DNA of 64,000 nucleotides from Halichondria panicea (Eukaryota; Porifera; Demospongiae; Suberitida; Halichondriidae). Positions 2,377 to 62,659 of the stretch are shown piece by piece. The stretch spans positions 4,283,047 to 4,347,046 of the forward strand of contig NC_087388.1 of the NCBI RefSeq assembly GCF_963675165.1, written 5' to 3'. The translations under genes were made by a program, and so were the position numbers. Under the pieces are notes generated by a model that did not search any database, had not been told where the DNA came from, and was given only the letters and a program-made list of their open reading frames with translations. Numbering within the stretch: the stretch's first letter is position 1; each line of letters opens with the position of its first letter.

Positions 2377-5300
2377 ATGTCTATAAATAAAATCCTCTCA
2401 ACAACAGATGAGGTCCGAACATTTGACAACACATCTATATCTGATATCGTCAACACTAGCACTGCATCCAATGGCAGGTATTTAATAGGATGACTCTATA
2501 ATTTATACCGGGACGGTCTCATACTCGCACATTAGTGTGTATTGGGGGTTTCGGATCAGTGCTTTTTGTATGCTTAGACCACTGATTGGGTTTCGTATCA
2601 GCGGTGTAAGTGTTACGTATAGTTCAGTGACCTTTCTAGTAAGCATACTAACTGAGTTTTCTGATGTAATAGTTTGTTTGGATCTCTGCCAAGAAGTGCA
2701 TTACCCGTGAGAACCCATTAATATCTGTATTATCGATCAGATTCTATACGTATTGCTCTCTTGCTACAGAATTGCTGAGCAACCCAAGGAAAGGATACAA
2801 GTAGTCGGAAACATCAGTCAGTTCTCAAGCGCTCAGGAGAAAGAAAATTTGAGATTTATTGTTGGAGGTATACTCCTACATCTAGAGGAAGAAACCCCTG
2901 AGGAGATTTTCAATCTCTTACTTGACAAGTACGAGACTTCTACACCGTCTGAAGAAGAACCGACAATTTCAACTGAACTTTTTCGCGAGGCATTAGAGTG
3001 TGCCATATCTAATTGTACTAGTGATAGTGCGAGTGAGACTGCGTCCCGTCTTAAAAGTCTCGAGCCATTCTGTGTCTCGGGAAGTTTTGAAAATAAAGAA
3101 AACATAACAGCACAATTCTGTTTTCGAAAGCAACTCCTTAAAATAGGATGTCAAATAACTACTGATGATGAACTTAAGAAGATTGTTGACAAGTTTGAGG
3201 AAAAGGAGTTGGGTAAAAATAAAGATGATGTCAAAACTCCAATGGAATTGTTCAGATGCCTACTGCGTAAGGGAGTCATTTCACCGGATGATCCTTCATC
3301 AATTGTTTCTTTTGAGCAGAAGCTAGGAATTTTTAAAGGTATAATGCATACTTGTATGAAATGTATTTTTGTGTTTACTGTTACAGCAGTATAAGGTCGT
3401 GCATGTACGTGACAGTAATAACCTATGTGCCTTCGGTCAACCTGCATGAATTGAATAGCGTATTATGTGTGCAAGTCATGTGTGTATGATTTGGACACAC
3501 ATAATTTTATATTGTTTGTTATTGTTGGCTTTTGTAAAGGTCACCTCAGTAGCATTACTATAAATGAAGTTGTACTTTTGCAAGTACATGTAGTTGCTGA
3601 ATTAAGCGCTCCCAGATTATAATTGATTATCTGTTATTATCATACAGTGGAACCTCCATAAAATGGACACCATTAGGGAACAGCCTTTTGGTCATTATAG
3701 AAAGGTGGTCTTATTTGAGAGGTTTGATTGCCATCCGCATGCAAGCAGGCCGGATGTGCCCACACTGCATGGTCGGGGTGGTCGGTATAATACTAACCAC
3801 CTCCATAATGTTTGCTGATTCAGGGTGTGATCTGGGAGGTTATTTTCAATAGCTAAAGCTGATATTGGGGACTAGAAAGTTGCTCGTTGACGGAGTAGAG
3901 AGCTGCGTGGCTGTTCCTAAGAGGTTGCTTTACAAAATTATTGTATAGTTTCAATCCTGACCCGAGTTTCTTGGCCGTTTTATAGTGGGTAGTTGCTCTT
4001 TGAAGGTGGTCATTAGTAGCTAGAGGTTCCACTGTAAATTATTTTCTGTTCTCAGTAGTTGTGTTGACCAAGCGACCTACTGAACAATATAGATTTATAC
4101 GTATTACTAATTGTGTACGTAAATGGTCACCATTACCGTACAATGCTCCAGAGTAATTGTGTATGTGTATAGCACATACATAGATTTGAGTGCTGTAATA
4201 TTCTATGTATACGTCGTATCTAATAACATTGATTTCGTTTCTCCTAATTAGTACATAAAATCATGTATACTTTTCTACTGACATGCAGCAGCAGGTGTTA
4301 CAACTTCGGCAAAAAGCTTCCAAGGTAACAATATCCACATAGATACCATGCATGTACAATCATACTGTATAGTACGAACACCTGCATAGTACGAACACCT
4401 GCACAGTTTTTATTTTGGGATTGTCATTGTATTATGCTGTATGCTGTGTTTTGTATTGTGCAGCTCTAAGCAGCGAAGGACATGCAGTTGATGGAGGGTG
4501 TGGTGAGTCTCACGCAAGGCTTTATGGGTAACTCGTAATATAATTTATGGTGGGCTATGCCAGGGACAAAGAATCATGAAATTAAGGAGTCCTAACGGAG
4601 TGTTATGGTTCTGTAATAATTATAGGCTGGGGATGCCTATTGTTTGGAGTGTATAATTCAATAGATTTAGTCCCCCATACATTATAGAGATTTCGTTTGT
4701 GTTCATGGAGCTCCCAATGAGCTGCTAGTTTCTTTTTGTGCTCCTAGTAAACATTATGATCGAGTTATTCGTGAAATCCATTTTCTTTGGTAAGTATTCG
4801 TGAAATCCATTTTCTTTGGTAAGGAGAGTTATTTGTTGTTGGTATATAGATTTATGGATACATGGATGAGTAATTATTGAATTAACTTCTTTTTTTCACA
4901 GGTATGCATACACAGAAAGGATCGTACAGCTTCAAAAGTATTTCGTGTAAGTTATTACTATAGTCATACATAGGCGTGCATTATTAAGCAAGGGCGCCTA
5001 TAATCCCACATGAGGAAGGATATGTGCGCTTATAAGTTGAAGAGCGCCTAATAAGAAAACTTTTAGTGTATGTCATTTAGAAAACGAGTGAAAGCAGAAC
5101 TTGTGCTCAATGGCTGTGTATATGAGTGTCTAAATTCAAGCAAATTTTAAAATATTTTAGCGTATACCTTGTCACAAAATTTATGTTTTAGGTTATTATG
5201 CTTTCATCTTTTCCACTTACAGGTCTATTCGTTATTGTATTCTACGTGTTTGTAGCCGTGGCCCTGGTCGGATTCAGCCTCTACTGCGTCTGGCTCAGTA

Positions 5301-6154
5301 GCACCCAATCCCACACACAAGACGTGCTGTTCTACAGAAACAACACTATACTTGTAGCAAGAGAACCACTGAGTAGCGCTTTCACTGAAAGAGTGAACTT
5401 CACTCTAAATTCAAATCATCAGTCTGACCTTCAAGTTTGCTACTACGACTGTACGAATATCTCGCCGCAAACACGCTCCGTCTCAGTCAATGTGTCGAGA
5501 AGTAGCAGCCATGACCAAAAAAAGCCAAGCAGTAGCCAACGGAGATTGGTGATGTTTTCAAATAGTGTTGAAGTTACATTTGCTAGTGTCTTCATGCTAG
5601 GTGGTTCAAGTGTTGTCTTTTCGGTAACTGGCTTGAACCAACAGATAGAACTCTATATCCTGACTACCTTTGAACAGTGTAAATCCTTTTTGAGAGGATT
5701 TGACAACTCAAGCTTTGAACGTTTCGAATTAAACGCATCCAATGACTACAGAGTGAATTTTGTGGTCCCACAAAGTCCACACAATAATTATTGTGGTGCT
5801 TGGGTGATCCCACCAGAAATAATGAATGCAACATTTCAGTACATGATCAAAGGATTTCGAAATATTTATAATCTTGAGAGCTCTGTCAGCTCGAATGTAA
5901 CATGTGTGTCACCTTTCACATCACCCTCCTATAATTTATATATCCCCATATCGTACACCTTGAGACGCATGTGTGTGTTTTTAGCACAAATGGACCACAA
6001 TAGTTTTACTACTGGAACAATACAGACTTTTCCTACTCTTAAAAATCCTCTGTTTGGAGTTCCTATGAGTATTGGTAGTTTTTTATTTTTTATATTACCA
6101 ATAATTATTTGTTTTGTGATCAAATGGGCTTACAAACAGTGCAATACTTCGTAA
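2377..6154 (+). CDS. T1: DED-like / two-pass membrane protein
   Basis: Spliced model: 2377-2477, 2770-3338, 4289-4324, 4464-4502, 4902-4946, 5223-6154 (573 aa). The ATG at 2377 lies 1 nt into an exon that may be internal, so the 5' end is uncertain. The 2770 exon encodes an all-helical region of about 190 residues that looks like two death-effector-like repeats, each ending in an ELFREAL or ELFRCLL helix. It is homologous to the T2 exon at 10802. Three tiny symmetrical phase-1 exons form a polar linker. The last exon encodes a TM helix (about residues 265-290), a loop rich in Asn-X-Ser/Thr sequons with conserved Cys, a second TM and a 10-residue tail. Sequons place the loop outside the cell. 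The function is unknown; a receptor or adaptor in death-fold signalling is inferred. S1 follows in the same direction. Confidence 0.65.
3645..4034. mobile_element. MITE, Tigger-like ends, in T1 intron
   Basis: The ends CAGTGGAACCTCC and GGTTCCACTG are inverted and flanked by TA on both sides. This is the signature of Tc1/mariner-Tigger-class MITEs. It lies in the intron after the DED-like exon of T1 and contains no coding capacity. Confidence 0.7.
4767..4823. repeat. 29-bp direct duplication
   Basis: The unit starting ATTCGTGAAATCC occurs twice head to tail with a 29-bp period. It is within an intron of T1 and has no evident function. Confidence 0.8.
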
Positions 6155-6710
6155 TTTTTTTGTTTTTTATGCTTGTCTTTATAATTTGTTTGTCAATCAG
6201 CACTTTTATTTTGATATAATTATAGAATGATGTTCTTGGAGGTGTACTGTACGCAAATTGATACATTAATTATTGGTTTCATAACAAACTTGTCAGTTTG
6301 CATGGCCGGCAGGCTATACGTAGTTAGATCAACATTATAATTTAGTTACCGATCCCGAAGAAGTCTTCAATTTTCATATCATGCATGAAGAGCCCATGCA
6401 TGTGCCTTACCACGATGTAGAACAATGTATGTGTTTACTTAGCATTATGCACATGCAATAATATTGTTATTGCCACTGGGGAGTGTTGAGTCATACATGT
6501 ACTACAATGCATGGTAATCTACCTGGGATTTCCCCTAACCTGGGTTTACAACTGCATGTTACATAGTCCCTGGGAATTTTTCCATATCTTATCACTTAAA
6601 ACAGCTCCAAGTCTTGCACCTATATAAGTTTCCCTAGTCAGGCTAGCTAGTGCAGTATAAGAAAATCAAGTTCTTGATGATCTGAAATAACAGTGTCTCT
6701 ACTTCTAACA

Positions 6711-8789: not shown

Positions 8790-8791
8790 AT

Positions 8792-11700
8792 ATGTCATTC
8801 ACTCTGAATGGTGTGTATACTAAAACGTACGAAGCTCGGAACAAATGGCGAAACATCCTTCTGGCTCTGAAAGTGGACCATGCTACCATTGACAGCATTG
8901 GTGCGAAATGGCGAGACAATCCTGACGACTGCTATCGTGAAGGACTGGGCGTGTGGCTGAGAGGTGAGGAGAAAAGCTGGAAAGATGTGGTGGAGGCTTT
9001 GTCCAGCCATACCGTTGGTTACAGTGGCATTGCCCGGGCCTTAGAGGAAAGCTACGTACACCAAGAGGAGAAGAGGGGTGGGACAGGAGATCAAACAACA
9101 GCATCAAATGTTGTCCAACATGACTCACCCCATGACAGGTGAGACCTTGTTTAACTTTTGTGGTAAATTGTTAGGGAAGTTTATAACCACACCAAGTGGC
9201 AATTTAGTTTCAAGCTCTATATATAATATGCCGCCCGCATTCAAATTTGCAACTACTTCCCTGATTTGAGGATACCATATAGCAGGTATATTTCGAGGGT
9301 ATAAATTTTCGCGGATGTGCCTTTAGAAAGTTTTTTGCAGATTTAATTTTCGTGGAATAGCGCCTTTTTTGCAGCATGCATGCATGAAATATTCAATTCG
9401 CGGTTATAAATGTTCACGGTTCATGCCTAATCTGCGAAAACCACGAACATTTATACCCTCGAAATATACCCTCTATACGGTAATCATTGCATACGTAGTA
9501 ACATAAAATGTCATTTGCGTGCCGGCAAGATGTCATGTTAAAGTTGTTAGTGTGAGCATAGATTGAAGAGAAAGGGATTGGCAACGAAGTGCACTTCCGG
9601 TACCATCCGTGTTTCACCTTGAGGCTTACTTCTAACGTGGGAGCCTAAACATGATAAGAATTGTTTTTGTCGTCTGTAAAAAAGTCTACGAGCAGTTCTG
9701 CTGCTAAACATCAACTTCACCTCATTTGTGTGGCCATTTGGGACATAGCACACTACTTAGTAACACAACCTTAGCTCTATCATAGGTGCTATAGGAATTA
9801 CACAAGCATGAAAAAGCCTCTGACAGAGGCTCTGTGTACCTCTAGCTACTTCACGAAAATCAAAAAATTATGTTTTATTTATTTCTGTGATACCTACCAT
9901 CAGGGGGCATGTGTTTAAGTGCTGGAGGGCTTTGAGAAGTAGGCATTAGACACAATAAGTTTCCCGGGTTTTCGCGGGAGTTTTAGGGCGAAATACGGAT
10001 GGTTTCAGGCCCATCTGTGTACATTCAATGTAAAAGCATCACGTGAACTGCTTCCGTTGCCAATTCCTTTCTCTTCAATCTATGGTGTGAGCTTGTTTTG
10101 AAGCCACACAAGCTAATTTTATGATAAATTATGACATCATAATATCCTATATATCCTCCCCCGTATCTATATCTGCAAGGAAGGGAAGCTGAAACTAATT
10201 TACCTAGGAGCTTTGAGTGGCCTAAGCTCAATTCACCAAAAGTATACAAGTGCATGGTGAAGTAACGACCAATGTAGTATAACTGGATTGTCACTGTGTT
10301 CTCTGCTCGTATCACAGCTCTACACCTGTATCCAGTTCTACAAGTGAGGAAAGTGGAATGGATGTAGGTCAAACCACACCCAATCCTTTACTAACAGCCA
10401 CTGAGGCCGTTGAGGAGAGTGGAGGTCAAGCCAAAGTTATTGCAGCTTTAGCGACCGCGGATGGAGATCAACTTTATTGCCAAATCCCGAAGCAACAATT
10501 CCAACCAGGTGTGTAGCACATTTTTACCTCAAGGTGTTTATATAGTGCTTATTTATTGCATTTTTCTGCACCACATACATAATTATATAGTGTCTACTGT
10601 TAGTGCCACTGACGCCACCCAGAGTAGTCATGACGAGAGTGGTAACGAAAATCAGGACGAACCTTTAGCTTCAGCACGTCCAAGACGTCCAAGGTATGTG
10701 TGTAATCAGTAACTGTAATGTACGTTGGTTACCTACATTACAGCTTTTTAGTGTACATGCACGGTACTGGTATTGCTGTCACAATTTCCAACCCCTTGCA
10801 GCAGTGCTTTTGACAAACAGGTTAACTCGGACATTGAAGGTGTCGTGACAAGAATAAGTCCACTGATTAGTGATGTAAACACAGAGAGGTTGCAATTAGT
10901 TGCTGAAAGTATTCTGGATGAAATTCTCGATGGCAAGAACGCTCTTGAGATTTATCTAAAAATTTCGAATAAGTATGAGTCTCGTGGACAAGCAAGTTTT
11001 GCAGCAACTCTCTTTCGGGAAGCCCTTATATATGCAACCAATACGAAAGAAGTGAAAACCCGTTTCAGTCACCTCAACGACCTTTGTGACCCTGAATGCC
11101 TAACGAAACAGATTGCGTTACTAGAGATGTTGAAATCACGGCAAAGTCTTTTGGAGTTTGGGGACAATGAATTAGGTGGAATGCAACTAAACGCTTTCGT
11201 TGAAGAGTTTAAAGACACTGAATTGGGTACGTCAAGAGACAACATTACAACACCGACAAAATTGTTCAAGTGCTTGCTTCGTAAGAACGTGCTACCATCA
11301 CAGTCACCTTCAGAATGGATTACAATATTGAAGACAAAGCTGTCTAATGCAAAAACAGGTATAATACTGAATGTGTCGATATTGTTTGGGATACAATCAC
11401 ATTCATACTACTAAATTAATATTATGTGGCTGAGAAGATGTGTATATATACACCTGGGATTTGCTAATCACATGCCCCAACTTGGTATTGTATCATACTA
11501 ACCTACGACACGTGTATCTCGATTAGTAAAATTGAGGTATTTGGTCACATGCAACAATGGCTTTACTGTTGCATTTTACACATTACTAGGCCTATAATTG
11601 AGGTATACTCGTAACTCTCGGTCTGTCTGTTTATGCTCTATGCATACTACGATTATATGCTCTTAACTCGTAAATACTACATTATGTGGAGCTGCATGTA

Positions 11701-14700: not shown

Positions 14701-17700
14701 AAAAAGATGCACATGGCTCATATCACAAAATTACATTTAGCGCCGCTGTTTTAAGCTGCTTGTCACTACACAAACACTAAGTTTGGCGCCCCTCTTTTAG
14801 CTTATTGCCACACAAACACAAAGTTTAGCGCTACTCTTTTAGATTATCGCCACACAAACACTAAGTTTAGCGCCGCTTTTTAGCTTATCGCCCATTTTTG
14901 TGGTACATACTTTTGTATGCCATAACCTTGTCAGTAGTATACACATGCATAGTTATTATACCCATGCATCTTTGTAGGTCCGTCACAAGACAAATTACCG
15001 AGTCATGAAGGTGAGTAACATACCAATCTTTAATTAACACATTGTGTAGAAATTCAATTATAGAGTGGTGTTTAGACGATTCTTAATTAGTAGTAGTACT
15101 TGCACTGTAATTATAGTTTGTACCTTAATTGATCTAGAGGGAGAGACAGTGAAGGAGCAGCTTTTACCAAAAACGTGGAAAATTGGATTGGCAGTAGTAA
15201 TAGGTGTGTTTATATTAATAAGGACAAGCAAAGTGAGTTATTTGGTTCTCAACCTTTTCAGCAAAATTTGATGTAAGGGGAAGCAACTTTTTTATCAAGA
15301 AAGGTCACAAAGTTTAAGTCAGGCATATCAAAGGTCAATTTTTAAGCCATTAAATTTTGTTTTGACGATCTTTACAGCCTATCGCAATAAAAAGGAGATA
15401 TAGTGGTGTAAAGAAAGTGGGAACCAAGTAATTTACTTTGTCTGGCCTAATACTTTGCACTTGCAGCTATATAAGGAACGAGTGGTGCAAGCTGCGCTAT
15501 GCTAATGCCTCTCGCCATGTTTTGCTTTCGCTCTAGAGTGATATAGAAGAGGTAACTAGTTATGCCTCGAGGCGTAGCCGCACGAGGAATACGGTAAAGC
15601 TGACTGTGTGTGTGTGTGTGTCTGTCTGTCTGCGTGTCTGTTCCAGCTGTAACTGCTCAACGGTTGCAATGCAACAAAAACTAACAACTTCTATAGGCTT
15701 TTAGCCATGTTCACTGGGATTTTGATTCGTGGATTAGCTAACTAAAGCTTTTTTCTCTAGTTTGACTCACATTGAAGGCTATTGCAGTCTCTTCAGAATC
15801 TTTCATAGCATCATCCGTTCGCACAAACTTTCTATTCAACATAATAATGAGTTAACCTTGCACTAAAGCGCTAGCTTTTTGTTAGCTACAAGAGTCAGAA
15901 AAGATCTGTTAAGCATCTACCTATAGTAGTCACTTGTGAACTTGATCTCTTTGCAGACACACCCTTTAATAATTATTCCTGGATGTAATGCGCATGCGTG
16001 CTCACCCTGGCAATTAAGTGACTCTGATGAGGTTTCCACAAGGTTGAACGAACTTACTTATTTTTCTTGAGGTCCTGATATACCAGTAAGCCACAATGAT
16101 ATACCATATAGAATAGATAGCATGTACACAAGTCTGGTAACAATAGATACATGTACACAAGTATTTTCTCTGCTTGTTTAGATATACTGTGCTCTGTGCC
16201 TATGACAAAGGTTTGCTCCCACTATTTGGCTACAGACCATTATTTTGCGTTGTTTCAGTATCGTTGAAGATTATTCATCAAGCCATCAGATATAGGCTTC
16301 TGCCATTCAGCTCCTCTCCTATAATATGACTGTCTGTAATTCAATTCTGTCAACAATTGCAATCAACAATAATAACATATAATTATACCTCTTCACCTCT
16401 TCTAATGAGTGAAAGCAAAACAACAGCGAGAGGCATTAGCACAGCGCAGCTTGCAACACTCGTTTACTTTGCAGTGGCATAGGCAGAGAGGGGCTGATAA
16501 AGCTGGAGCCTCCCCCCCCCCTTTTAGGCTCCAGAAACTCCAACTCATTGGATCTGTCATCTAATCCTAGTAGATGGAAAAACTGTTTACCTTAGTAAAA
16601 TATCTTTTTTACGCTTTATTTGTCCTGCTCACGCAATAACGTTTTATGGTAACAAGAACCCCAGTTGAGCACTGCCCACCAAAAATCCTGGCTACCCCAT
16701 TGCAATGTTAATGTAATGTTTAGTAGGATATACCACACCTACAAAAGGATATGCACTCATTTATCCTTCGCTACCGTGGTTACTTCGAGGCGTAGGTATG
16801 TAACCACGATACCAGGTCACCCCTTCCATCTTTGCACATTAAAGCAGATAATTTTAATTAACGAATAATTTTCTTTTCGTGTAGGGATGCAAATTACCCA
16901 CAAAAACAGAGAAAATTAAGCCCTTCAAAAATTTAGCGGTAGATCAGGGTGCCTCATTGTTTTTGCTTGGTGATGAAGTTGCACATATTTTCATTTTTAA
17001 AGGAGCTATAGCTAACTGCATGTAACTTTACATTTCCCATAACTTTATACCGAACGTTTTCTACAGAAAAATAACTGCATGCCATTGTTTGTTTTTCTTC
17101 GCAGGTGTTCTGCTGGCAGCCATCTTTGTATCCCTACTCGCTTTCAGCTCTACATCTGGCCTATCTAGTCAAGGGTCCCACTTTGAAAACACAAGCCTCT
17201 GTAGAAACACGACTATATTGGTATCAAAACGTCTCAACACTCAATACTACGAGAGAATCATGTTTACACTCAAGCACGATATTGCAGAATTTCCAAACAT
17301 AACAACATGTGTGTTTGACTGCACCTATTCTGAACCACAGCTTTTTACTGCATTTGGGACCCACAACTTAACAAGTACCCACTCTGCTGTTTTTGATCCC
17401 CTCCCAACTCGTAGATACGCTCACATTCGTGAGAGTCATAATGTTCCAGAGCTAATATACATGTTGGAAGGTTCTACACTTCTGTTTTCTCTTAATAATG
17501 ATATTCCAGTGCCTCTACAACTTCACATACTAACATCGGCTGAGCAGTGTAGAGACTTTTACGCTGGGAAAATAAACTTGAGTGCTAGAAATTTCTCACT
17601 AAATGAGGCCAATAACTATACTGCTAATTTCACTGTACTCCCTGGTGAGCCCCCCTCATACTACTGTGGTGTATGGGTGATCGATTCGAATGTTACATTT

Positions 17701-19761: not shown

Positions 19762-20619
19762 AGTTTTAAGTTCTATAGCCTTTTTTCTATAAAGTTATAT
19801 AATTATATACAATGTGTAATTTTCCAAATATGTAAATGGAGAAGTGATTGGTTGATCAGAATGAAAACAATCAAAATTCCATATATACAGAGTTCTACTC
19901 CAGATTCTGGAGTAATTGTTATTCAGAGTCTACAATGGAGGGGAGTGTATACTTAGGGAATTCACATGCACTGTTTGCCTGTAAGAATAGGTCATTGTCC
20001 AACCTGAAAGTGCGTGGTGTATGATAGTGGTATACTAATATGGCTGGCTATAGTCGGCTTAATAAGATCATGCATGGTATATAGTATAGTTCAGTATAAT
20101 TATAGCTCTCACAATGTCCTTAATATACAGTTCATGATCATAATCTCTCGACTGCGGCTACATTAGGTCTCCTAAACAAGCCAAAAAATTAATTATGACT
20201 TTATAACAAATTCAAGATAATTACCCCCTATGCATATACGTATATTTGAAGGAAAATAGGCACCTCTGAGTGCAGCTCCTTATTAGTATACCCACTAACT
20301 GTGCATGCATATTAATAATCTCCCTGAAAGTGAATTTGAGGGTATAGTGCAGGTGGGGATGGGGAGTTGCAACCCATGCAAGGACAATGGCCCATTCAGG
20401 ATGTGGATTGGGTTCCACCCCATTACTAGAATAACAGACAATAGGTGCATGGTCTACTTTAACATCTCTATAATTATGTATATATAGGTGCTTGTGCAAG
20501 CAAACTGATGCTAGTAGATCTATAATTATAGTTATATATAGCTGAGACTATAATTATACTTATAGCTGAGTATATACTATAGACTTATATATACTAGACT
20601 AAGTATAATTATATGCAAT

Positions 20620-40283: not shown

Positions 40284-42086
40284 ATGGACACTCAGTCTGA
40301 TAGAGCTAGCTGTGTTATACAGCAGAAAGATGATTTTGATAGGCTAGCTTTGCCTTCTGTCTGTCCCAGTTGCAAAAGAGATAAAGTATCATGTGTTTGT
40401 ACTGAGAGGTTGGATCCAAATGACCCAGAGAAGATATGGGCGATTTTGTACTATCCCGATGCTGTTAAAGTCAGTCACAAGAAGCTCTGCACCTTGCTGA
40501 AGAAATTGAAAACTTACAACGATAATCAAGTGAGATTCTTGAGCCTAAATGCACCTATCAATGTGTTGCCCCACTATTTATATTCCCCCCCCCCACCCCC
40601 GGGACATACGGGGAATTTAACTATAATTTAACTATTGGCCCCATACTGGGGGATTTGACCTGGCTTTGCGTAGTAAAACTGCTTTTATAACCTGTTTTGA
40701 TGTTTGCAACTGTTTGGCAGAATCCTCCCCCACCATGGAGGGGGAATTTGACTTAGGTATGGTCAAATCCCCCATATAAGCCCGTTGGGCAACACATTGA
40801 TAGGTGCATAAAACACAGCATATATAATTACGCATACCTATAATTATAAGGCATGCACCACGTCCGTGCAGTTGTGTCCTATATACTGCATATACGTGAT
40901 TCTTAAGTATAATTAGGCTAGTATAATTAATAGTATGGCTAAGAGTGCAATATGGGATTAATAGCACGAGTAACAAGCAATGGCAAGGCTACATTGTACG
41001 AGGCGCAGCTGAGTGCTATTAACCTTGCCAGTGCTTGTTATGAGTGCTATTGATCCCTTATTGCACGAGTATAACCATACTATTGATTTCTAATCGTGAA
41101 TGATAAAGTTCTCTGCAGTTTTTATTAACATTTTCGGACGCGGCTGTAATTCGAAAAAATACGTTGTCATTGACAGCGTGCAACTATTTGACAGGTAATT
41201 GCACGCTGTCAATGACGACGTGCAATTACTGGTAATACGGGATTAATTGCTGTACACTCTCCAGTCGCTAATAGCACATCATACGATTTTATATAGCTAA
41301 TTAAGTAACGGAGGGTAAAATTAGTTGCAATATACCTTTACACAACTATATAACATGTATTGCAGCTTGCTATGAACAAATTTGAATGGACACTTTCAGC
41401 GAGAGTGAATTGTAAAGATGACGACCCCTCTCAAGGCGTGCAAGCATCAATAAACAACCCTCCTTGCTCCGACTGTGAGGCCTTACGTGTGCCATGTGAT
41501 TCTAGCGATCCCGTTTCAGACGACACTCCATCAAATAATGTTAACGGATACTTCTGTGTGACTGCACCAGTGGATGATCCTCCTAACGTGCAAAGCCCTG
41601 GAAATCTACATTATGTTTGTGACTACACGCACACGGTCATTGTTGATCTTCGGTACAGCTTCCAGCCAATTATAAGCGTGCCAATCTGTGGAAATGTGTG
41701 CTCCGTTTCTTCGATCTGTTATTTGAACGACATTGCTGATAAGGTGCGAGAGATTGTTATTGAGCAGCTCAGCCTCCAGGATCACAACAAGTACAGGTAT
41801 AATTAATTATATGAAGTGTATGCATGTGAAAAGTGAGTATTCGAAATCGATAATGATTGTATATACAATAATTATACTGATGCTATAATTATGAGTGACT
41901 ATACAATGAAACCGCCCCTTGCTCGATCATCAATAGTGTCATAATTATACATGCTCTCGCCCCCAATTCTATATACTTATACCAGCTAGTATGTTGCTGT
42001 ATATATGTAAATACGTACTTGTTCATTATAGGGTCTACGTACTCAAGCCACAAAACCAGACATACTTAGGAATATCTCCAAGGTGA
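40284..42086 (+). CDS. S4: small protein of the S family
   Basis: Exons 40284-40529, 41366-41796 and 42032-42086 (243 aa), phases 0 and 2. It resembles S3 throughout: DPEKIWAILYYPD block, LAMNKFEWTLSARVNC at the start of exon 2, YFCVTAPV, VIVDLRY, LNDIADKVREI, and VYVLKPQ in exon 3. It has an N-terminal Cys-rich extension (CPSCKRD, then CVC) not present in S3, and further Cys in exon 2. The last exon stops at TGA after ISPR, where S3 reads on for about 30 more residues. The TGA overlaps an AG|GTGAAC donor-like site, so another exon is possible. It is convergent with T4, mirroring S3/T3. Confidence 0.65.
40930..41281. mobile_element. MITE in S4 intron 1
   Basis: The ends contain AGAGTGCAATATGGGATTAA and its inverse form, with inner palindromes AACAAGCAATGGCAAGG and GTCATTGACAGCGTGCAA. 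Related copies are at 7511-7680 and 63738-64000. Confidence 0.65.
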
Positions 42087-42349: not shown

Positions 42350-45300
42350 TTAGTTGATAGTAAGATAGTTATAGTTTTTCTTGTTTCTAGCTTTCACACC
42401 ACTACATACACACGAGCAAGCACAATAGAAGCATAGCAAAAGTACACACAAAGCAGATAGACACACGAGTGACAGTAGTATAATAGTATACATGTTCCAG
42501 AACCCACGGTATACGTTGTACTCTAAAGTCACATAGTACGATTCAGCCACTTCGTGGGGAGGAATGGAATAAACTAAAACACAAGTTTTCAGCGTGTCAG
42601 TGTAAGTATCAGTTGAGCTCGGTGTGAAAGGTACGGTGCAGGAATCAGTAGATGTTAGTACACATACAGGGGGTGGGAAATTGTCTCTTGAGTAGTGGAT
42701 TTGATGGACGATAACTGTAAATTGTAAGTTGACAGGAGAATCAGGCCTGAGTCCAATAAAGTAGTAACCAGTGTTAACAATTGTTAAAGAAAGTGAATAT
42801 GTTTTTTCTTTTTCGTTAACTTGTATTGGGTACGTTTCATAAGCATCAGGTTTATCACCTCTTTGGAAAGCTTCATACTGTTGCAGATTGTTGTACAGAA
42901 CAAATTCTATTGTTGTGTTTTGGGTTCTAGTCGGGAAAAAAATTGCTGTTAATTTCACTTTGGAGCCGGATATGAAATAATAAGGTGATAAAATCACGTC
43001 ATCGCGTGTAGCCGTTACGTTACCTGATGAGATGTTAAAATAATTATCGTCCACGATTAAATTTTCAGGGTAGAATGAATATACCTCAACTGTACACGCA
43101 GGACAACGATTGTGTTTCGATTCTTCAATAGTGATTTTATTATAGTAATATGTATCGAAATAATCCAACAACACCATATTTTGATTTTCGACTTCGATTA
43201 TTTGAGAAATTGTACCTGGAACAGTCGATATACGTATCAATATTGAGCCAAATGTTATTAGAGCAGCTGCATTTCCAAAGAAAACCACCAGAACGATAAG
43301 TTTCCAACACTTTAGTCCACTTTTTACTGTAGGGGAGCAAAATACACAGTTGAGATACAATTATGGATTATATACCCCACTTGGGGTCTGTATCATAGCA
43401 ACTGGGTGGGGTTTAACTACCATTAACCCCCGCATTCCTCATAAACTTCCTTGCCTTGAGGGCAAACTGATTCTATACTAGATCTACACAGCTAAAAAAA
43501 AGCTAACATTTGTTGACAAGGGCAGGACAGATGGGTGGGGCTCACCGCTTGGACTAGTACAAAGGCTTATAGCGCTGGCTACAAGCTGTACGGACAAGCT
43601 TTTTGCTCGTGTTTTCAATAGTTTTTAAGACTGTTAGCTAGTTGTATCCAAGGTGAGATAGAAAAAATCATTCCAGTGGGTATATAACACTTATTGTCCA
43701 CTACATCAGAATTTATGGCAGTAAACCTCCGAGGACGAGGGTAGTTTTGTAGGTTGTATATACACAGTTGAGATACAATTATGGATTTTAGAATAATTAT
43801 ATCCAACAAGTGCGTCTTCCTACGTATGCGTTGACAAATTGACTTAATATGCATGCAATCTGGCTTCTCATTAAATGCCTAGAGCCAACAATCTTCCTAA
43901 CAACAATAATTATGAAGATAACAACAATATGAAGCAACATCTTAAAACTCACGTACATTTGTTATTTTTCTTCAGCAATGGTTCCAGTTCTGTACAAAGT
44001 AAACAAACATTGGTAGTAGCTAGTCCATATTTCAATTAAAGTGGTCATTTTAGGGTTTGTGGTGTATGTAACTAGAAGAGGAATTTCCCTGGGAAGGTCC
44101 CCTTATTGTGAGATAGCCAGCTACAAACGAGGTATACAGGAACGAAACTGATACATACATGTACACTGTACATAATAGGAACAAACACTAGAATACAATC
44201 ATAGAGCTATAATAATTACAATGTATATATGGAATGTGGAATGCACTTTGTGTATTTAGAGGCTTTTATTTTATTTTATAGAGAATAACAACTAACTATT
44301 AGACTGAAATCCTTACAGTCATAAGAAAAGCACATACGAGCTAGAGTATAAATAGGAAGTAGAGACTAACTATTGATGGCATAATAATTAAGTCATATCC
44401 TACTATAGCCTCGGTCCCAGGCCGATTTTTTTTTAATAGAACGAAGTTGAAAAATACGGCCTGGTATTGATTGTATCTGGGCGTGGCAGGAACAGGAAAC
44501 AAAAGCAGAGATTCTTTACATTTTGTTTCCTGCTTTTTTTCTGTAATACTAAAGGTGTACGTAGAGGCATTTTACTCCCGTAAAAGTTACAGTAATTTAG
44601 CTCCGTGTCATGTTCTCAATTTATAGCTAGCTAGCTATGGCATGCAACGCGTTGTCTTGTTTGAAGCAAGATGGCCTCACTCTCATGGCAGAACAGGCCC
44701 AGGCTCTCAAGCTCCTGTTTGAGGGAAGGGACGTGTTTATCTGGTTCCCAACGGGGTATGGCAAGTCTCTCTGCTATATCAGTTGCTACCCTTTTTAATG
44801 GACTACAAGCTAGGTAGGACCAAGGCTCCTCCTGTTGACAAAAGTGTTGTTCTTGTTAATTGTCTCTCCCCTTGTATCTCTCATCATGAGACTCATGATT
44901 GACCAGATCAGGAGTCTAAACAATAGAGGTGTTTCTGCTGCCATCCTCAGTAGCAATAAAGGAATCGACAAAGATTTGGTTGCCACTCCCAAAGAAGTGT
45001 CTTCTGGGAAGTATTTCCTGCTGTATACTGCCCCAGAGGCTGTTGTTGAAGACCACTGTTGGAGGATTCATTTTTTGTTGTACCACGAGTCAATTTGTTT
45101 TATGTATTAAAAAACCACGCCCAGATCACGCCCAAATACAATCAATACCAGGCCTAGTAGGCGACCTAGCGTTCAATTGGAGACGGATCGGCCTGGGGTC
45201 GAGGCTAATCCTACTACATATAAACGCACAAACATAATAATATGCATGATCTCACTGTTTTAGTTTGTCTGGAAGACTCACCAGTTTCTGTTGTACCTAC

Positions 45301-45830
45301 ACTGTGTAAGTTCTCAGATTGAGAGGGGTACACTCTGACTGAGTTATGAGGTCGAGTCACCTCTTGTACTGGAAAAACTGAGAGAAAGCACAAAAATGTG
45401 AACACTATATAATTTATACTAGCACACTGTATATATTAATACTGTGGAAGTAGTGATTTGCTTGTGGATAAATATCCTAATCGTCATGCACACTTCACTA
45501 GCTGAATCAGATAAAAACATTGTAACATTATAATAAGACTTCAATCCTTTATATACCGTCTCCAGCTTTTATAGGTCCAGTTGTTGTGTGATTTTTAGCT
45601 TCAAACTCGACATTATGCGATACTTTGTAGGAAGTGAATGGTTTAACTTTGGCCACGTCTTCACCAGGAGTTGTTACAGCAGATCGGCCAGGCACAAGTG
45701 CTGATTGTCCTTGTCTGGTGTCAGTAACTTCTAGGGACTTAGTTCTCAGTCTGATGTCATCTGATTCAAACAATGCCGAGTCACTGTCCAGGAGTCCAAC
45801 ACTAGTGCTTTCATCATCTTTGTAATCCAT
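42350..45830 (-). CDS. T4: two-pass membrane protein with short cytoplasmic head
   Basis: Minus-strand exons 45830-45557, 45368-45282, 43989-43957 and 43326-42350 (456 aa), all phase 1 and matching T3 exon for exon. The head carries LEVTD...GQSALVPG as in T3 and an LEPLLKKN stretch before the membrane. TM1 (KLIVLVVFFGNAAALITFGS) is followed by an ectodomain with a CPAC pair, VDDNYFNIS, QIHYS and a C-x6-SCT pattern, then TM2 with a Cys-rich tail. It is a close paralogue of T3. A HECT-bearing transposon inserted 49 bp upstream of the start codon, and a MULE-like element lies in intron 2, so its promoter may be altered. Confidence 0.65.
43361..43956. other. T4 intron 3 with local repeats
   Basis: The phrase ACACAGTTGAGATACAATTA occurs twice, near 43345 and near 43765, so part of the intron is internally duplicated. 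No coding sequence is seen. Confidence 0.4.
44406..45207. mobile_element. MULE-like element, copy 2, with larger RecQ fragment
   Basis: Ends are TAGCCTCGGTCCCAGGCCG and the inverse CGGCCTGGGGTCGAGGCTA. The perfect 9-bp duplication ATCCTACTA is at 44397-44405 and 45208-45216. It is inverted relative to copy 1 (315-932) and about 200 bp longer. It lies in T4 intron 2. Confidence 0.8.
44630..45110 (+). pseudogene. RecQ-like helicase fragment with Walker A motif
   Basis: The plus-strand translation around 44710-44790 gives LFEGRDVFIWFPTGYGKSLC, the RecQ Walker A region (PTGxGKS). A stop and a frameshift follow, then SPLVSL, DQIRSLNNRG, AAILSS and LLYTAPEA. Only the first part of the helicase core is present and it is broken, so no function is expected. 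It shows what the shorter copy at 450-690 derives from. Confidence 0.7.
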
Positions 45831-50096: not shown

Positions 50097-53000
50097 ATGA
50101 GTGGTGATAGTCAACCCAATAATATTTGGGCTCAAGGCAATTTTAATGGTACGTTTTCCACATAACTTTATTTTTCTGCACTCATTATTAATATACGGTT
50201 GGTGTGCCGTATAGCCGGTAATTTTCGGCAACTACAAAAATATTATCCACGAAATACTGAACCACGAATATTTTGTCCCCCATAATTACCGGCTATACAG
50301 TACGTAGAATGACAATAACTTTTGGGTTTATTACAGCCGGTATAACAGTTGTGACTGATCCCACTCCTGGTACTTCCCCGGAAGATGGAACCCTTAACTC
50401 TCAAGATGTTGCTGGTGATGGTGGACACTCTAGAGGCACTTTAGACACTGCTCAACCAGGTGTGTGGCTTAGTACGTCATCCTATTCTTATATACATAAC
50501 ATGTGTACTATCTTAGTGATGGATGTGATGCGCCCGCATGTTGTTGTATCTAAATACGAGTGGTCGATAACAACCTGTTGACATAAGGATCGAGGCATGT
50601 GACAATGCATGCCTATGAATATTAAAGTGTTGTAACTACTAGCCTAGCGCACATCCATTTATAGGCAAAAATGGATGCTGGCTTGCATTATGTCAACATA
50701 ACTGTATTTTCACTACAAGGGGCTGTTCACCATTCCCCAGGGGCTTGTGTCTTTGAACAGACCTCATTTCATGGACAGGCCTCAGAGGATGTGGGTTATG
50801 AAGTTGATGATGAAAATCGACCTGTGGAGAAGTTGGAAACAGGTATAATTATTGTCATCAAGCGTTGTTTTTATCCTGTTTGCTCTTAGTTTTTCAATGT
50901 ATTTTATTAGTGTTTGTTTTTCATTGTACATGTAGGTAAACAGGCTTTATTGTATGGCCTGACTTTAAGTGCTCAAGAAAGTCATGTACCAGCTTATGAG
51001 GTTACACCTGAAGAAACTCAAACAGGTACATGCTTATACAATACTGTGCATGATGTATCGTATAGCTGGTAATTTTCATGGGGCCAAATATTCGTGGATG
51101 AAGCTCTGAACCATGAATATTATACTCACGAATGAAGCAACCTTGCCTACTTTACCTGCAGAAGCAGCAACCACAAAAATATTATCCACAAAGTTGACTA
51201 AATATTGCTCAATGTTTTACCCCCCGAAAATTACCTCCTATATATATGGTATGTATACAGTGAGGCATAAATTATTATAATACTATGTTTTGGGGCTGAA
51301 GAAAGGATTTTGTTGACTGAATGTTACTGTCACAGGTCTCCAAGTGATTCGGTCATGTGTGAAAGCAAGTCCGAATGCCCTTGGGATGGCTCTGGTTGTC
51401 AGCCATCAAGATGTCCACTCATCACAACGTCTCGATTCTCTCGCAGGGATCGATTGTGGAGCCCAGCAACTAGAAGAGGCATTCACAATGTGCGGTTTGG
51501 CTGTTGTACGTCTTGTGAATCCAACAAAAAGGGAGTTGCTCGCAGTTATAAGAGCAATGATTTTGGACAGGGCGGACCCCATGGCTATCGAGTATCCCGC
51601 GTCGTATAAATACTTCTTCTTCTACACGACAGGCCATGGAGCAAACAAAGTGTTCTTCACCAAAGACGGGTCCATTTCGTACCAGGATGTGTATGACCTG
51701 TACCAGGGTTTTCTTTGTCAAAGATATTTCTTCTTTGACTGCTGTCGCTCTATCAGGATAGACTCGATGAGTTTGTACCCAAATGGAGATCGTGTCCTCC
51801 CTCCCTGTCTTGAATTCTCAATTGATCCCTACAATTGTGTTATCTATGCAACCGTTAGTGGGCAGCAAGCATTTGGACCAGGAGATGGTGTCTCCTTTAT
51901 GACAAAAAAAATGGTGGGTCTTCTAAAGAAGCAGATACCCATGAACAAAGTGCTGTATCGTCTTCAGGAAGAGGTAAATGATGCAACTGGGGAAATGAAG
52001 CAAGTGGTGGTGGTTCTGAATGCTACTCCTATATATAGCAAAATTCATCTTTGGAAGGAACAGGAGCAAGCCAGTGAGTTCTGTATAGTTTTGTAGTATC
52101 TAGATATGAAGCTTGTGTTTTTACATGTATTGTAAACTTCTTGTCTTTTCGTGTGCATGGTCTATAATTTGTTTCACACAGCTAACTTACTGCAGTTCAA
52201 TCCTTTCAGTGAATCCAAAACTTCAAGTTGTGCCCCATGTTTCTCGAGACAGTGCTGTGGTGTACCTTTCTGCCGAATTCCCTGCACCAACTACCACCTC
52301 CAAATTCCATCATCGAAAGAGCCTTCAATTTCAGGTACATAATTATTGTCGATTTGGCTGTTATTGGCTAATTACATAATGTATGTAACGTACCGTTATA
52401 GCGGGTTATTTTCTTCGTATGGTGGAAATGTTAGTATAATTATTTCGAATATATATATATCGTACGAAAATAAAATTATTCTACCGCAATATAGGTTCAG
52501 CGTTACTATTCTGAGCTGTACGAATATTTAAAATACTTAATTGGGTAGTTCATATGAAAATTTGCACCAACAAAAATAACCCGCTACAGTAGAACCTCGA
52601 TTATCTGGCCCTCCATTATCTGGAACCTCAATTATCTGGCTTGGCAATTTCTTTTAATAATTCAGAAAATGGGCCTGCCCTTAAATGCGCATGCGCGTTG
52701 CAGCTGTTACTATGAAGACAGGCCTACTTATCTTCTGTGCATGCGCACACAACCATGTGGTTCTTCAATAAAGTGGGTGGATCAAGGCGTGGTTTGTCTA
52801 TTCGACTATCCGTTATCTGGCCAGCTGTCTCTGGAACCAAGGTGTCCAGATAATCGAGGTTGTACTGTTTACGGTAGTCTGCTATCATGTACTTAGATCC
52901 GTGATTACTATTGCAGCAAATCTTTTGTTGAATGAACAGTTGCACACCTACAATCGTTTTATGTAGACCTGTTTTTTCTTCTTTTATATATAGATGAAAT

Positions 53001-54999
53001 CCCAGACTGGAACTTGGATAACTTTGTCTGATGAGTATCAGGAATCTTCTGACCCTGTTAGTATACCCCAGCCTGCAAGACGTAGGGCCAGCACTGCCAC
53101 GACTGCGTCTCAGCCCTCATATGTACCTCTTCAAGAAATTGCTTCGTACGAGAGAGGCCGTGATCTAGTGAGTCCTATAAGGCCAAGTCACTACAACAGT
53201 AACCAACAAGCCCCGAATGTGTCCCAAGTTACCCGTGCTCTGAAGATTCCTGTGACTGAAGTAGGGAAGAGAATGACCGAGTTCAGAGTGGTATCAAAGC
53301 TAAACGGAGGATTGGAGCTAGAGTCAAACACTGTGTTTGGGATTGTTGATCTAGGTATGATATCTTCACATTGATAAACCAAGCAAGCTAGGTGCATTGC
53401 ATTGTTATTTTGATTTCTATACACGCTGAATCAATATAGCTCTAGTGCGTTAAGCAGACTAAGGCTCCATAGCCTTTACATTAGTTCACCCCCCCCCCCC
53501 ACACACACAACACACACACACACAGTTCAACCAGTGATTTGTAAACATGACTCGGTAATCGAATTCGAGGGCAGCCAAGAGCCACGAGTCTCCATATGCT
53601 GGACTATCCGTCAAGTACCATTCACGATCTCCTACCAGCAATTCAGCATTCGCGTTTTCAAGAAGGGCAAGCAGGGCAATCTTCAATCAGTTTTCTCAAA
53701 GAAAATTGATTTCGACCCCCAAAAAGAGCATCATAAAGAGTCTTTTGATGTGCCTGATTTGAGTGATGAAACTGATGGGGATACTTATTTGGTTGTTGTG
53801 GAGGCCAAGCGAGTGGATGGTCAGACTGTTTGCAGTGAAAAGACCTCTTTGAAAACCTCTAAAAGTATGTGGAGTATCAGTATGGCTTCTGTTTTGATGT
53901 TCTTTATTCTTGTACATGTATATAAAACAGCATGGCGTATAAGTACTTATCTTGTTTTCACTGCATACATGTGAATAATTGAAGATTTTGTGTTGCAGGT
54001 TTCTGTCTCAACTGGCAACGCTTGGTTGAATTTGTGGCCTTTGTTCTTTTTTTAACTGCTATAATTGCTCTCCTATCAAGTATGATTGGCATCAACACTT
54101 CAGAAATGAATGAGTACAGGTACAATGCGTCTGCAATGTTGTCGTATACAACGCTTGGAATTCCAACGGCTCAAAGGAATGCCAGTTTCTTTGATTGTCT
54201 CCTGCACTTCGACTACAAAAACCAACAAGTGATCAAACATAAAGACATAGATCTCTACTGCGGTCAATTTACTAAGTTACAGCTGGCCAATAGTCGGGCA
54301 CCAAAGTTCTGTGGACCCAATGATATCGAGATCAATCAGCGAAACAAGAAGCTTGAGGTGCCTGTGGATTTCCTCCCAATTGGTAGTAGCATTCCAAGTG
54401 CTATAAATCTACTACCACGATCGATATTCTCCGTATATCTTTGTCTATCAGCACCTGTAGATGGAACGATTGTATTCGAGCTTTATCGGTACGAACACTT
54501 TACAACCTGTGAGCCTCTACAAAGGAAAGCCGTGACTTTTAATTACTCAACTTCTTGTAGCAACACCTCTCTCAATGTTTTGGAACCCAACCTGGTCATT
54601 GGTGCACTGTCGACAAATAGTACCATCCATCCGGAATTCACAATGATCCAAGGATATGTCCAGCAGTATTATTATGATGAGAAACATCTTGGGCTGATTA
54701 ACGACACTTACCTTGTAGGAGACCAGCCAAAAACCATTCCCGGGAGCATCGAGACAGAGCTAGTGTGTTATGCGAATGGAGATCGTAGCCGTACTGTTTT
54801 CTTGCATCTCTTCAGTGTACTTGTTCCGACTGCCTTGACACTTTGGAAGGTGATTGTGATTGCGACTACTGCCCTCGTGCTTGTTGTTGCGTTTATTTTC
54901 TGTGTTTTTCGCCGTACCCTAGTCAGATTCGTGTGCAACCAGTATAGACAGTGTAGAAAAAGGTGTGGACACAACTCATACATTAAACTTAATAACTAA
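50097..54999 (+). CDS. T6: caspase-like / FN3-like / two-pass membrane protein
   Basis: Exons 50097-50148, 50337-50459, 50720-50842, 50936-51025, 51336-52073, 52210-52334, 52994-53354, 53526-53864 and 53999-54999 (983 aa). All introns are phase 1 except one phase 0. An N-terminal polar region of about 130 residues is followed by a caspase-like domain (about 130-370) with TGHGAN (His about 230) and FDCCRS (Cys about 266), like T5. One A-B pair of FN3-like modules follows; the A module is split by an intron and has a Ser/Arg-rich insert (PARRRAS). Then come TM1 (VAFVLFLTAIIALLSS), a glycosylated ectodomain with VQQYYYDE, TM2 and a basic tail. Active-site residues are present, but the substrate pocket cannot be judged. 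A membrane-tethered paracaspase-like receptor is inferred. The exon at 50720 uses an AAG acceptor and is less certain. Kinase K1 follows 158 bp later. Confidence 0.72.
50202..50302. mobile_element. Short MITE of the TACCGTATAG family in T6 intron 1
   Basis: GCCGTATAGCCGGTAATTTT at the left is inverted against AATTACCGGCTATACAG at the right, about 100 bp in all. Confidence 0.65.
51055..51253. mobile_element. MITE of the TACCGTATAG family in T6 intron 4
   Basis: CGTATAGCTGGTAATTTTC at the left and GAAAATTACC at the right are inverted, with CACGAATGAAGCAACCTTGC inside, as in the copy at 37.5 kb. Confidence 0.6.
52391..52868. mobile_element. Two adjacent MITEs in T6 intron 6
   Basis: 52391-52584 has inverted ATAGCGGGTTATTTT and AAAATAACCCGCTA ends. 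Directly after it, 52587-52868 has CAGTAGAACCTCGATTATCTG and its inverse ATAATCGAGGTTGTACTG with TA on both sides, a Tigger-like MITE. Together they make up most of the intron that splits the FN3-like A module. Confidence 0.7.
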
Positions 55000-62622: not shown

Positions 62623-62659
62623 CTGGTTTGCTCAGCGATCGTCAGAGACATGACAGGAG

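Follow-up and report, generated by a model that had tools for sequence, protein, structure and literature searches.

Six genes, T1 to T6, lie clustered in a 64,000-nucleotide stretch of the Halichondria panicea genome (hereafter the window; coordinates count from its first letter), and each ends in an exon that encodes two hydrophobic segments separated by a long loop. An earlier note had proposed that the six loops are one undescribed ectodomain carried by receptors with swappable signalling heads. Do these loops belong to one family, is that family new, and what would such proteins do at a membrane?

Six exons with a common two-pass layout

The six 3' exons of 310-333 codons, each encoding a transmembrane segment (TM), a loop, a second TM and a tail, were all found where the earlier note had placed them:

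5223-6154, plus strand: T1 TM-ectodomain-TM-tail exon, 310 codons, phase-1 acceptor
17105-18039, plus strand: T2 TM-ectodomain-TM-tail exon, 311 codons, phase-1 acceptor
22033-22994, minus strand: T3 TM-ectodomain-TM-tail exon, 319 codons, phase-1 acceptor
42350-43326, minus strand: T4 TM-ectodomain-TM-tail exon, 325 codons, phase-1 acceptor
37721-38700, plus strand: T5 TM-ectodomain-TM-tail exon, 326 codons, phase-1 acceptor
53999-54999, plus strand: T6 TM-ectodomain-TM-tail exon, 333 codons, phase-1 acceptor

Codons are counted from the splice acceptor adopted for each exon up to its stop. Hydropathy gave a hydrophobic peak at both ends of all six exons, a TM-ectodomain-TM layout like that of the APD1-4 proteins discussed below, and an additional small third peak within the loop of T1. 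The loops measure 246-258 residues, where about 240-260 had been estimated, and the sequons said to be numerous come to 8, 9, 2, 3, 6 and 7 per loop from T1 to T6. The motifs proposed as recurrent fared unevenly in the translations. An early Cys pair is present in T1 (CYYDC), T2 (CVFDC), T3 (CPDC) and T4 (CPAC) and absent from T5 and T6; the Q-aromatic-YY motif holds as Q-x-YY in T3, T5 and T6, T4 having QIHYS and T1 and T2 being without it; and C-x6-SCT-x2-F, claimed for T2 and T4, occurs in T3 as well, where it had been overlooked. The set of six was itself too small, since this genome has at least 13 genes of the family, and a single chromosome carries 11. T9-T13 lie on the same chromosome as T1-T6 and span about 270 kb together with the window; T7 and T8 are located elsewhere in the genome. 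T7-T13 are the bridging members.

Death-fold, caspase-like and short heads

Upstream of the TM exons lie the following candidate head exons:

2711-3338, plus strand: T1 predicted cytosolic head exon with a DED (PF01335 E 3.8e-4); phase-1 donor candidate 3338
8792-9138, plus strand: possible first exon of T2, FADD-like death domain (FADD rows in PDB, best E 0.015)
10752-11358, plus strand: T2 DED-like head exon, 29% identity to the T1 head; phase-1 donor candidate 11358
24529-24766, minus strand: T3 short, predicted cytosolic N-terminal exon; phase-1 donor candidate
45557-45830, minus strand: T4 short, predicted cytosolic N-terminal exon, no Pfam match; phase-1 donor candidate
29146-29955, plus strand: T5 caspase-like domain (PF00656 E 3.4e-10, 40.4 bits against a cut-off of 21.4)
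30997-34607, plus strand: T5 repeated exons, the last ending at phase-1 donor candidate 34607
51317-52096, plus strand: T6 caspase-like domain with DCCRS (PF00656 E 7.7e-9, 36.0 bits against a cut-off of 21.4)
53414-53864, plus strand: T6 exon akin to the T5 repeats; phase-1 donor 53864, 134 bases upstream of the TM exon

The modules do differ from gene to gene, as had been claimed: a DED in T1, DED-like and death domains in T2, caspase-like domains in T5 and T6, and short heads in T3 and T4. The T1 DED stretch (residues 138-196 of its frame) scored 21.1 bits against a PF01335 cut-off of 35.9, and the T2 head exon, which has no Pfam DED match of its own, is homologous to the T1 head (E 1.7e-12); we therefore call the first a divergent DED and the second DED-like. 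PDB searches with these two exons returned no death-fold row for either. By eye, a possible second death-fold stretch precedes the T1 DED. For the FADD-like exon, all 11 PDB rows at E<=1 were FADD and no Pfam death domain matched; its top-scoring donor has phase 2, and from order and strand only it is a possible part of T2. Outside the window, DED matches below the Pfam cut-off were found in T7 (E 4.9e-5), T8 (E 4.1e-5) and T10 (E 7.8e-8), with two stretches each, and in T12 (E 0.019), with one. Comparison of the T1/T2 with the T7/T8 DED heads gave no significant match (best 25/2000).

The short head exons of T3 and T4 are 43% identical over 69 residues, and the head of T9 is also short. In T5, the His of CHG and the Cys of DCCRS, which we take to be the catalytic dyad, align with caspase-7 (E 1.5e-6); at the two aligned caspase-7 arginines, presumably those of the S1 pocket, T5 has a Leu and a gap. 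The T6 domain matched caspase-3 in PDB (E 2.2e-5) and by eye has the His-Cys dyad and lacks the S1-pocket arginines. In caspases these two arginines confer Asp specificity. The T5 repeats comprise two tandem stretches, 95 and 97% identical, and gave no Pfam match in the three frames scanned. By eye they look like beta domains, Ig- or FN3-like. The akin exon of T6 matches T5 exon 34220-34612 (E 2e-5), again with no Pfam match. We consider it probable that T1-T6 are one family of two-pass receptors that would cluster these cell-death heads at the membrane.

A link to plant APD1-4 proteins

The APD1-4 proteins of plants are RING-type E3 ligases with a two-pass layout, and a location in the ER, Golgi or endosome lumen has been proposed for them. 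The ectodomain that had been called undescribed proves to be linked, via T7, T8 and T9, to the Pfam pair APD1-4_N/M (PF16040/PF16041). The best two of 24,736 Pfam families for T7 are APD1-4_N (E 0.013) and APD1-4_M (E 0.65), collinear and below cut-off; for T9, APD1-4_N comes second (E 0.13, below cut-off) after DUF6524 (E 0.12). PF16041 lies above cut-off at 12 places in the genome, whose own APD members have the two-pass layout, and three ectodomains of the window carry a Cys pair that aligns with that of these members:

17764-17790, plus strand: T2 Cys pair CQPISTPSC, aligned with the pair in the APD1-4_M members
22297-22323, minus strand: T3 Cys pair CLLESTKSC, likewise aligned
42638-42664, minus strand: T4 Cys pair CVLTSTDSC, likewise aligned

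Of 12 T ectodomains compared, 9 have this middle-domain pair (T2, T3, T4 and T7-T12) and T1, T5 and T6 lack it. The T1-T6 ectodomain is best read as being of the same stock as the N and middle domains of APD1-4, connected through intermediates. T1-T6 resemble the APD1-4 proteins in layout and in ectodomain kinship through T7, T8 and T9, and T2, T3 and T4 also in the Cys pair aligned with that of the genome's own members. They differ in that none of the six exons matches PF16040 or PF16041 at E<=1 in the Pfam scan, in having no RING (no Pfam match in the six exons, nor in the APD relatives L010 and L019), and in placing the predicted effectors before TM1, not after TM2. According to a passage in PMC4036515, APD1 and APD2 are plant-specific RING proteins; among the matches listed, DUF4792/DUF4793 appear in two plant papers, and in one of these, PMC8169666, a table has animal codes (Dm, Dr, Hs, Mm) among the organisms given for the RING group concerned.

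The family link to APD RING ligases also favours an alternative in which these proteins are endomembrane adaptors: the ectodomain, in the lumen of the ER, Golgi or endosome, would select cargo for turnover, the heads would be scaffolds, and PPxY-tailed relatives would recruit HECT-type ubiquitin ligases instead of having a built-in RING. The motifs exist, as PPSY in the tail of T11 and as PPPY and PPKY in L019. However, no PPxY motif is present in the translated tails of T1-T6, and heads of the DED, death and caspase kinds serve in signalling and are unusual for cargo adaptors; we regard this alternative as unlikely.

Predicted joining of heads to TM exons

The reading of T1-T6 as receptors with cell-death heads takes the head exons to be spliced to the TM exons. 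Alternatively, the TM exons could be separate genes, with soluble proteins encoded next to them by the DED, death and caspase exons. Introns that span several kb might conceal other genes (the T2 gap is about 5.7 kb), and a Met lies just upstream of the acceptor in the T1 and T5 frames. Against this, both members of each pair have head and TM exons in the same order and strand, the DED-then-TM order is repeated at the T7, T8, T10 and T12 loci, and in T6 the gap is 134 bases and the donor the best of its frame. The most pyrimidine-rich AG upstream of TM1 is in phase 1 in all six genes (T6 has a phase-2 AG, still more pyrimidine-rich, within TM1), and phase-1 donor candidates accompany these acceptors in 6/6, likewise in T7. 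This phase match is weak support, because the chosen donor is top-scoring in one of the six frames (it ranks 4th in T1, 2nd in T2, 3rd in T3, 2nd in T4, 2nd in T5 and 1st in T6) and the five highest-scoring GTs of each frame often include phase-1 ones. From order, strand and splice phase we predict that heads and TM exons are joined, and separate genes appear quite improbable.

One ectodomain superfamily

Within pairs, ectodomain identity is 52% for T1/T2, 30% for T3/T4 and 32% for T5/T6; the T5-T6 match has an E of 4e-21, and T6 joins the family via T5. The three pairs are mutually related, weakly and visibly only via further members of the same genome. Genome searches with T2, T3, T4 and T6 as queries returned the query itself and its partner only, T3 adding one insignificant row, and a T6 query found no match in phages. 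Comparison of the groups by hhalign gave probabilities below 1% in 6 of 10 pairs and 1.6 to 19.2% in the remainder (T3/T4 against APD, 19.2 or 40.5% depending on the query side); one direct between-pair comparison had a probability of 14.6%. With single-group profiles, 0/2000 shuffles scored above in 2 of 40 comparisons, and 2 more had 2/2000.

Between-pair comparisons of this weakness would suit convergence, in which three families without common origin arrived side by side at a TM-loop-TM layout and share motifs by chance. We examined this with a leave-group-out test, in which a profile made without the target's own group is scored against 2000 shuffles. T6 with its own pair left out scored 3.7 bits (41/2000 shuffles), again in keeping with convergence. 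In contrast, no shuffle reached the score of T2 (27.8 bits), T3 (43.9), T4 (47.4) or T5 (15.5), nor that of T7-T13 or the APD member L010; T1 scored 7.6 bits (9/2000) and, in another profile round, 11.6 bits (2/2000). The APD members L019 and L021 had 5/2000 and 6/2000 in the same round as T6. Recovery was weaker in rounds with fewer sequences; as left-out targets, L010 had 572, 41, 0 and 0 of 2000 and L019 57, 907, 469 and 5 over four successive rounds, and L021 had 4, 6 and 6 over the last three. In a control with real open reading frames, 2 of 129 frames scored above T2-T4, the top one from an APD locus. Since T2 to T5 are recovered without their own pairs, and a probable intron phase and the cluster are held in common, convergence is very improbable, and the data support a single superfamily of ectodomains with different signalling heads.

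In the ectodomain tree, 7 of 16 inner branches are well supported and the backbone is weak. Head types need 5 changes on it against a possible minimum of 3, T11 being counted provisionally as short-headed. The tree does not show repeated head swaps, a single origin per head type being compatible with so weak a backbone. Of the proposal of one superfamily with swappable heads, the data support the relatedness of the ectodomains via bridges, their common topology and probable intron phase, and the variety of their DED, death, caspase or short heads, but do not show that heads were swapped repeatedly.

An AlphaFold2 model of T3 (pLDDT 63.2, pTM 0.43) has an all-beta ectodomain flanked by two long helices. 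The best 50 rows of a PDB fold search with it comprise jelly rolls of viral capsids, carbohydrate-binding modules, spore-coat proteins and further beta proteins; none has a TM-score above 0.26 by query or 0.46 by target, and we infer neither a carbohydrate ligand nor kinship from them. Ion channels with two passes, such as P2X or ENaC/ASIC, would if fitted with regulatory heads have a similar layout, in which a loop of some 250 residues containing Cys lies between hydrophobic ends, but T1-T6 match no Pfam channel family at E<=1, no channel is among those 50 rows and the relatives are APD, so we give this alternative hardly any credence.

A putative class of death-signalling receptors

As a family of two-pass receptors with cell-death heads, these proteins might work as follows. 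Both ends would probably be cytosolic, with the sequon-bearing, probably all-beta loop outside the cell or in a lumen, and the phase-1 intron upstream of TM1 would allow varied cytosolic heads to be placed there. At the cell surface, the ectodomain would bind a ligand carried by an adjacent cell, by a microbe or by a damaged surface, and binding would bring the proteins together in clusters. DED or death heads gathered in this way (T1, T2, T7, T8, T10, T12) would then seed death-fold assembly and recruit caspases; in T5 and T6 the protease domain would be built into the receptor and switched on by proximity; and the short-headed T3, T4 and T9 may be co-receptors, decoys or dampers. We put forward only tentatively the broader idea of a class of animal receptors whose APD-type ectodomain connects directly to the cell-death machinery, receptor-caspases such as T5 and T6 included. 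If it is true, T5 and T6 are single polypeptides that combine an outside sensor with an internal caspase-like protease whose pocket is unsuited to aspartate, the DED- and death-headed members replace the relay from receptor through FADD to caspase-8 by direct seeding at the membrane, and a role in immunity or self/non-self recognition is possible.

The extrinsic cell-death pathway is built chiefly from death, DED and caspase domains. Death receptors of the TNFR/Fas type are single-pass proteins with Cys-rich repeats, and receptor, FADD and caspase-8 are separate proteins. The T family has the same part list of death domain, DED and caspase; unlike in that pathway, the parts are apparently fused to a two-pass APD-type ectodomain. 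In paracaspases of the MALT1 type a caspase-like domain stands beside Ig domains. T5 and T6 are similar in that their caspase-like domain adjoins domains that are Ig-like by eye, an identity without Pfam support, and dissimilar in their two-pass membrane anchor. In PDB both match caspase-3/7 and ancestral caspases, and T5 additionally matches designed Pizza proteins; MALT1 is absent from the 30 PDB rows of T5 and the best 60 of 84 of T6.

Passages of PMC8195603 describe lineage-specific death-fold expansions in marine invertebrates, in which a DED or death-fold unit is combined with variable partners; they include extracellular domain-TM-DED proteins in C. virginica and, in the sponge Amphimedon, a set of 357 TRADD-N proteins, in which Death-like domains occur in most architectural types. 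The T genes are alike in being a lineage-specific set that pairs a DED or death-fold unit with varying partners, and unlike in their two-pass APD ectodomain, which those passages do not mention; Pfam scans of the T heads gave no match to TRADD-N. Among the matches listed, we recognised no description in the literature of an APD ectodomain with death-signalling heads, and these clustered two-pass APD-type proteins may represent an undescribed class of cell-death or immune receptors.

In this one chromosomal cluster, an ectodomain apparently of common stock with plant ubiquitin ligases adjoins death, DED and caspase domains, which bears on how death receptors and relay proteins were assembled in early animals. 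If confirmed, the arrangement would add an alternative wiring of the extrinsic cell-death pathway and a membrane-anchored caspase, extend the APD ectodomain to signalling in animals, and provide candidate receptors for immunity or self-recognition of the sponge type.

Layout and kinship of the six window genes

Each of six genes in the window (T1 to T6) had been proposed in an earlier note to end in a 3' exon coding for a transmembrane segment (TM), a loop forming the ectodomain, a second TM and a tail. This layout was borne out, with positions and codon counts as first claimed.

TM-ectodomain-TM exons of T1 to T6
5223-6154, + strand, T1 3' exon, 310 codons
17105-18039, + strand, T2 3' exon, 311 codons
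22033-22994, - strand, T3 3' exon, 319 codons
42350-43326, - strand, T4 3' exon, 325 codons
37721-38700, + strand, T5 3' exon, 326 codons
53999-54999, + strand, T6 3' exon, 333 codons

All six exons have a hydrophobic peak at either end (T1 also has a small third peak), and their loops span 246-258 residues with 2-9 sequons each. The most pyrimidine-rich AG ahead of TM1 is in phase 1 in all six, although in T6 a phase-2 AG within TM1 is more pyrimidine-rich; the nearest upstream paralogous frame has a phase-1 donor candidate close to its end, again in 6/6. Since this donor is the best-scoring GT of its frame in T6 alone (where the gap to the TM exon is 134 bases), the intron-phase match counts as supportive rather than as proof. 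The T5 tail closes with YTLV (38686-38697), similar to the C-terminal motifs that bind PDZ domains.

The exons form pairs, with identities of 52% (T3/T4), 32% (T1/T2) and 30% (T5/T6). The window spans 4,283,047-4,347,046 of contig C12 in a genome of 131 Mb and 39 contigs, whose introns, compactness and death-fold and caspase domains suggest an animal, probably a sponge. When this genome was searched with T2, T3, T4 and T6, each query returned itself and its partner alone, bar one insignificant match of T3. Matches of the T1-T6 exons in a Pfam scan all fell far under the cut-offs (E 0.077 or worse), and none pointed to a convincing family. Direct comparisons between pairs were weak: hhalign gave T3/T4 against T5/T6 a probability of 14.6%, and among 40 single-group comparisons no shuffle scored above the real sequence in two and 2/2000 did so in two more.

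The APD1-4 link and further family members

The ectodomains are reminiscent, in their Cys-pair spacing and beta-strand motifs, of the APD1-4 domains found in plant RING ligases, and the genome was therefore searched for PF16040 (APD1-4_N) and PF16041 (APD1-4_M).

APD1-4 domain gene set found with PF16040 and PF16041
contig C8, 5.48-5.61 Mb
contig C17, 1.898 and 1.915 Mb

PF16041 scored above cut-off at 12 places (10 on C8, 2 on C17) and PF16040 at 9; because these include identical copies (e.g. L010/L011 and L019/L020), which are either recent duplicates or assembly copies, places do not equal genes and the gene number is unsure. The members examined at full length have the TM-ectodomain-TM layout; among these, a Gly-rich N-terminus is found in most on C8, and a PPxY tail in those on C17. 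Neither of the two scanned against Pfam (L010, L019) has a RING.

A gene first met as a weak APD1-4 match, T7 (locus L037, C17), codes for a TM-ectodomain-TM exon behind a DED exon. Its best two of 24,736 Pfam families were APD1-4_N and APD1-4_M (E 0.013 and 0.65, respectively), which match in collinear order, both under cut-off. With T7 as query we found T8 on contig C11 (E 2e-18), likewise behind a DED exon; T8 led to T9 on C12, the contig of the window (E 0.13), T9 to T10, T11 and T12 on C12 (E 4e-21, 8e-18 and 6e-10), and T10 to T13 (E 0.075), 3.8 kb beyond the window. At least 11 genes of this type, T1-T6 included, thus lie at 4.248-4.517 Mb of C12 and at least two elsewhere, counts that are lower bounds, as single-protein queries with a loose first pass may miss members.

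PPxY, a motif that recruits WW-domain ubiquitin ligases, occurs in the tails of T11 (L071 1417-2487) and of the APD relative L019 (minus-strand frame), which suggests recruitment of such ligases in place of a RING.

Significance of a single family

Profiles were built with one group left out, and the left-out ectodomains were scored against 2000 residue shuffles each. With 20-sequence profiles, no shuffle reached the real score (in bits) for T2 (27.8), T3 (43.9), T4 (47.4), T5 (15.5), T7 (42.4), T8 (53.6), T9 (26.2), T10 (26.7), T11 (53.3), T12 (19.9), T13 (36.9) and the APD member L010 (20.4). Lower scores were obtained for L019 (7.8; 5/2000), L021 (6.0; 6/2000), T1 (7.6; 9/2000) and T6 (3.7; 41/2000). 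The shuffles preserve composition and lose local order; no reversed sequence exceeded 3.7 bits in this run. The grouping of T9-T12 was made by similarity, once they had been discovered. In three runs with smaller sets, the shuffles out of 2000 reaching the real score numbered 69, 3 and 1 for T5; 12, 133 and 15 for T6; 0, 13 and 2 for T1; 572, 41 and 0 for L010; and 57, 907 and 469 for L019, with 4 and 6 for L021 in the second and third. The smaller sets being weaker, the classical APD group is reached confidently only when T9-T12 are added.

The idea of one superfamily with different heads (the probable cytosolic parts coded upstream of the TM exon) is thus supported for T2-T5 (0/2000 each) and more weakly for T1; T6, poor on its own profile, joins through its partner T5 (match E 4e-21). 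Taken together, the results support a single family of two-pass proteins that share an APD-type ectodomain and differ in their cytosolic heads. The further proposal that this ectodomain belongs to no known family did not survive: it represents a divergent lineage within the stock of APD1-4 domains.

An AlphaFold2 model of T3, from an alignment of the six window sequences (mean pLDDT 63.2, pTM 0.43), predicts a long helix at either end and, between them, an ectodomain that is all beta apart from one short helix. Among the 50 PDB matches listed for it, no TM-score exceeded 0.26 by query or 0.46 by target; the best were capsid proteins of viruses, carbohydrate-binding modules and further beta proteins. 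The model thus points to a beta sandwich and to nothing more specific.

Cytosolic heads

The T1 head has one DED stretch (E 3.8e-4, under the Pfam cut-off). That of T2 is a DED-like exon homologous to the T1 head exon (E 1.7e-12), with no DED match in a Pfam scan; upstream of it on the same strand lies a death-domain exon whose PDB matches at E<=1 are all FADD (11/11, best 0.015). T3 and T4 have short, mutually related head exons (43% over 69 residues), that of T4 giving no match in the Pfam scan, which covered this exon of the two. The heads of T5 and T6 contain caspase domains above the Pfam cut-off, nearest in the PDB to caspase-7 and caspase-3, respectively. Aligned with caspase-7, T5 retains the catalytic His and Cys and lacks the two arginines that form the Asp pocket. 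Exons with a beta-domain look follow both caspase domains; no Pfam model names those scanned. T5 also contains tandem stretches (31280-32020 and 32821-33588; 95 and 97% identical), a recent internal duplication of repeat exons.

Outside the window, DED exons lie upstream of T7, T8 and T10 (two DED stretches each) and T12 (one), all under the Pfam cut-off; the T1/T2 and T7/T8 DED heads gave no significant match to each other. T9 has a short N-terminus within one exon, and no head was identified for T11 and T13. Another DED exon (L070 3082-3729, E 2.2e-6) follows T10 and is probably the head of another cluster gene.

A tree of 19 ectodomains supported the pairs and the APD group and left the backbone without support; head labels required five changes against a minimum of three. 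Consequently, of the notion of swappable heads, the difference between heads holds, but repeated swapping does not follow, and each head type may have a single origin on this tree.

Neighboring features

Other features of the window
20566-21909 and 40260-42083, + strand, gene pair sharing three matching frames, in a tail-to-tail arrangement with T3 and T4
55125-56090 and 62654-63580, + strand, two single-frame proteins, 31% identical, adjoining the cluster, protein-kinase look by eye
315-932 and 44406-45207, fragment present twice in inverted orientation (identity 99-100% over 395 and 209 bases), helicase-like by eye
58577-59203, + strand, one frame, transposase-type DNA-binding domain look by eye

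The gene pair was probably duplicated along with T3/T4, and its product is a possible partner protein; the two frames scanned gave no significant Pfam match.

Proposed function

The APD1-4 proteins of plants carry a RING, and pollen development is disturbed when they are lost (PMC4036515); this likewise fits a plan of "ectodomain plus effector". Large sets of death-fold proteins occur in sponges and in other sessile marine animals, and the portion of that account consulted makes no mention of a two-pass APD ectodomain (PMC8195603). Among the matches listed from the open-licence literature, none described an APD-type two-pass ectodomain with death-signaling heads. Topology, sequons and head types make sensing at the cell surface the likeliest function of the T proteins, which would signal through clustered death folds or, in T5 and T6, through a caspase built into the receptor.
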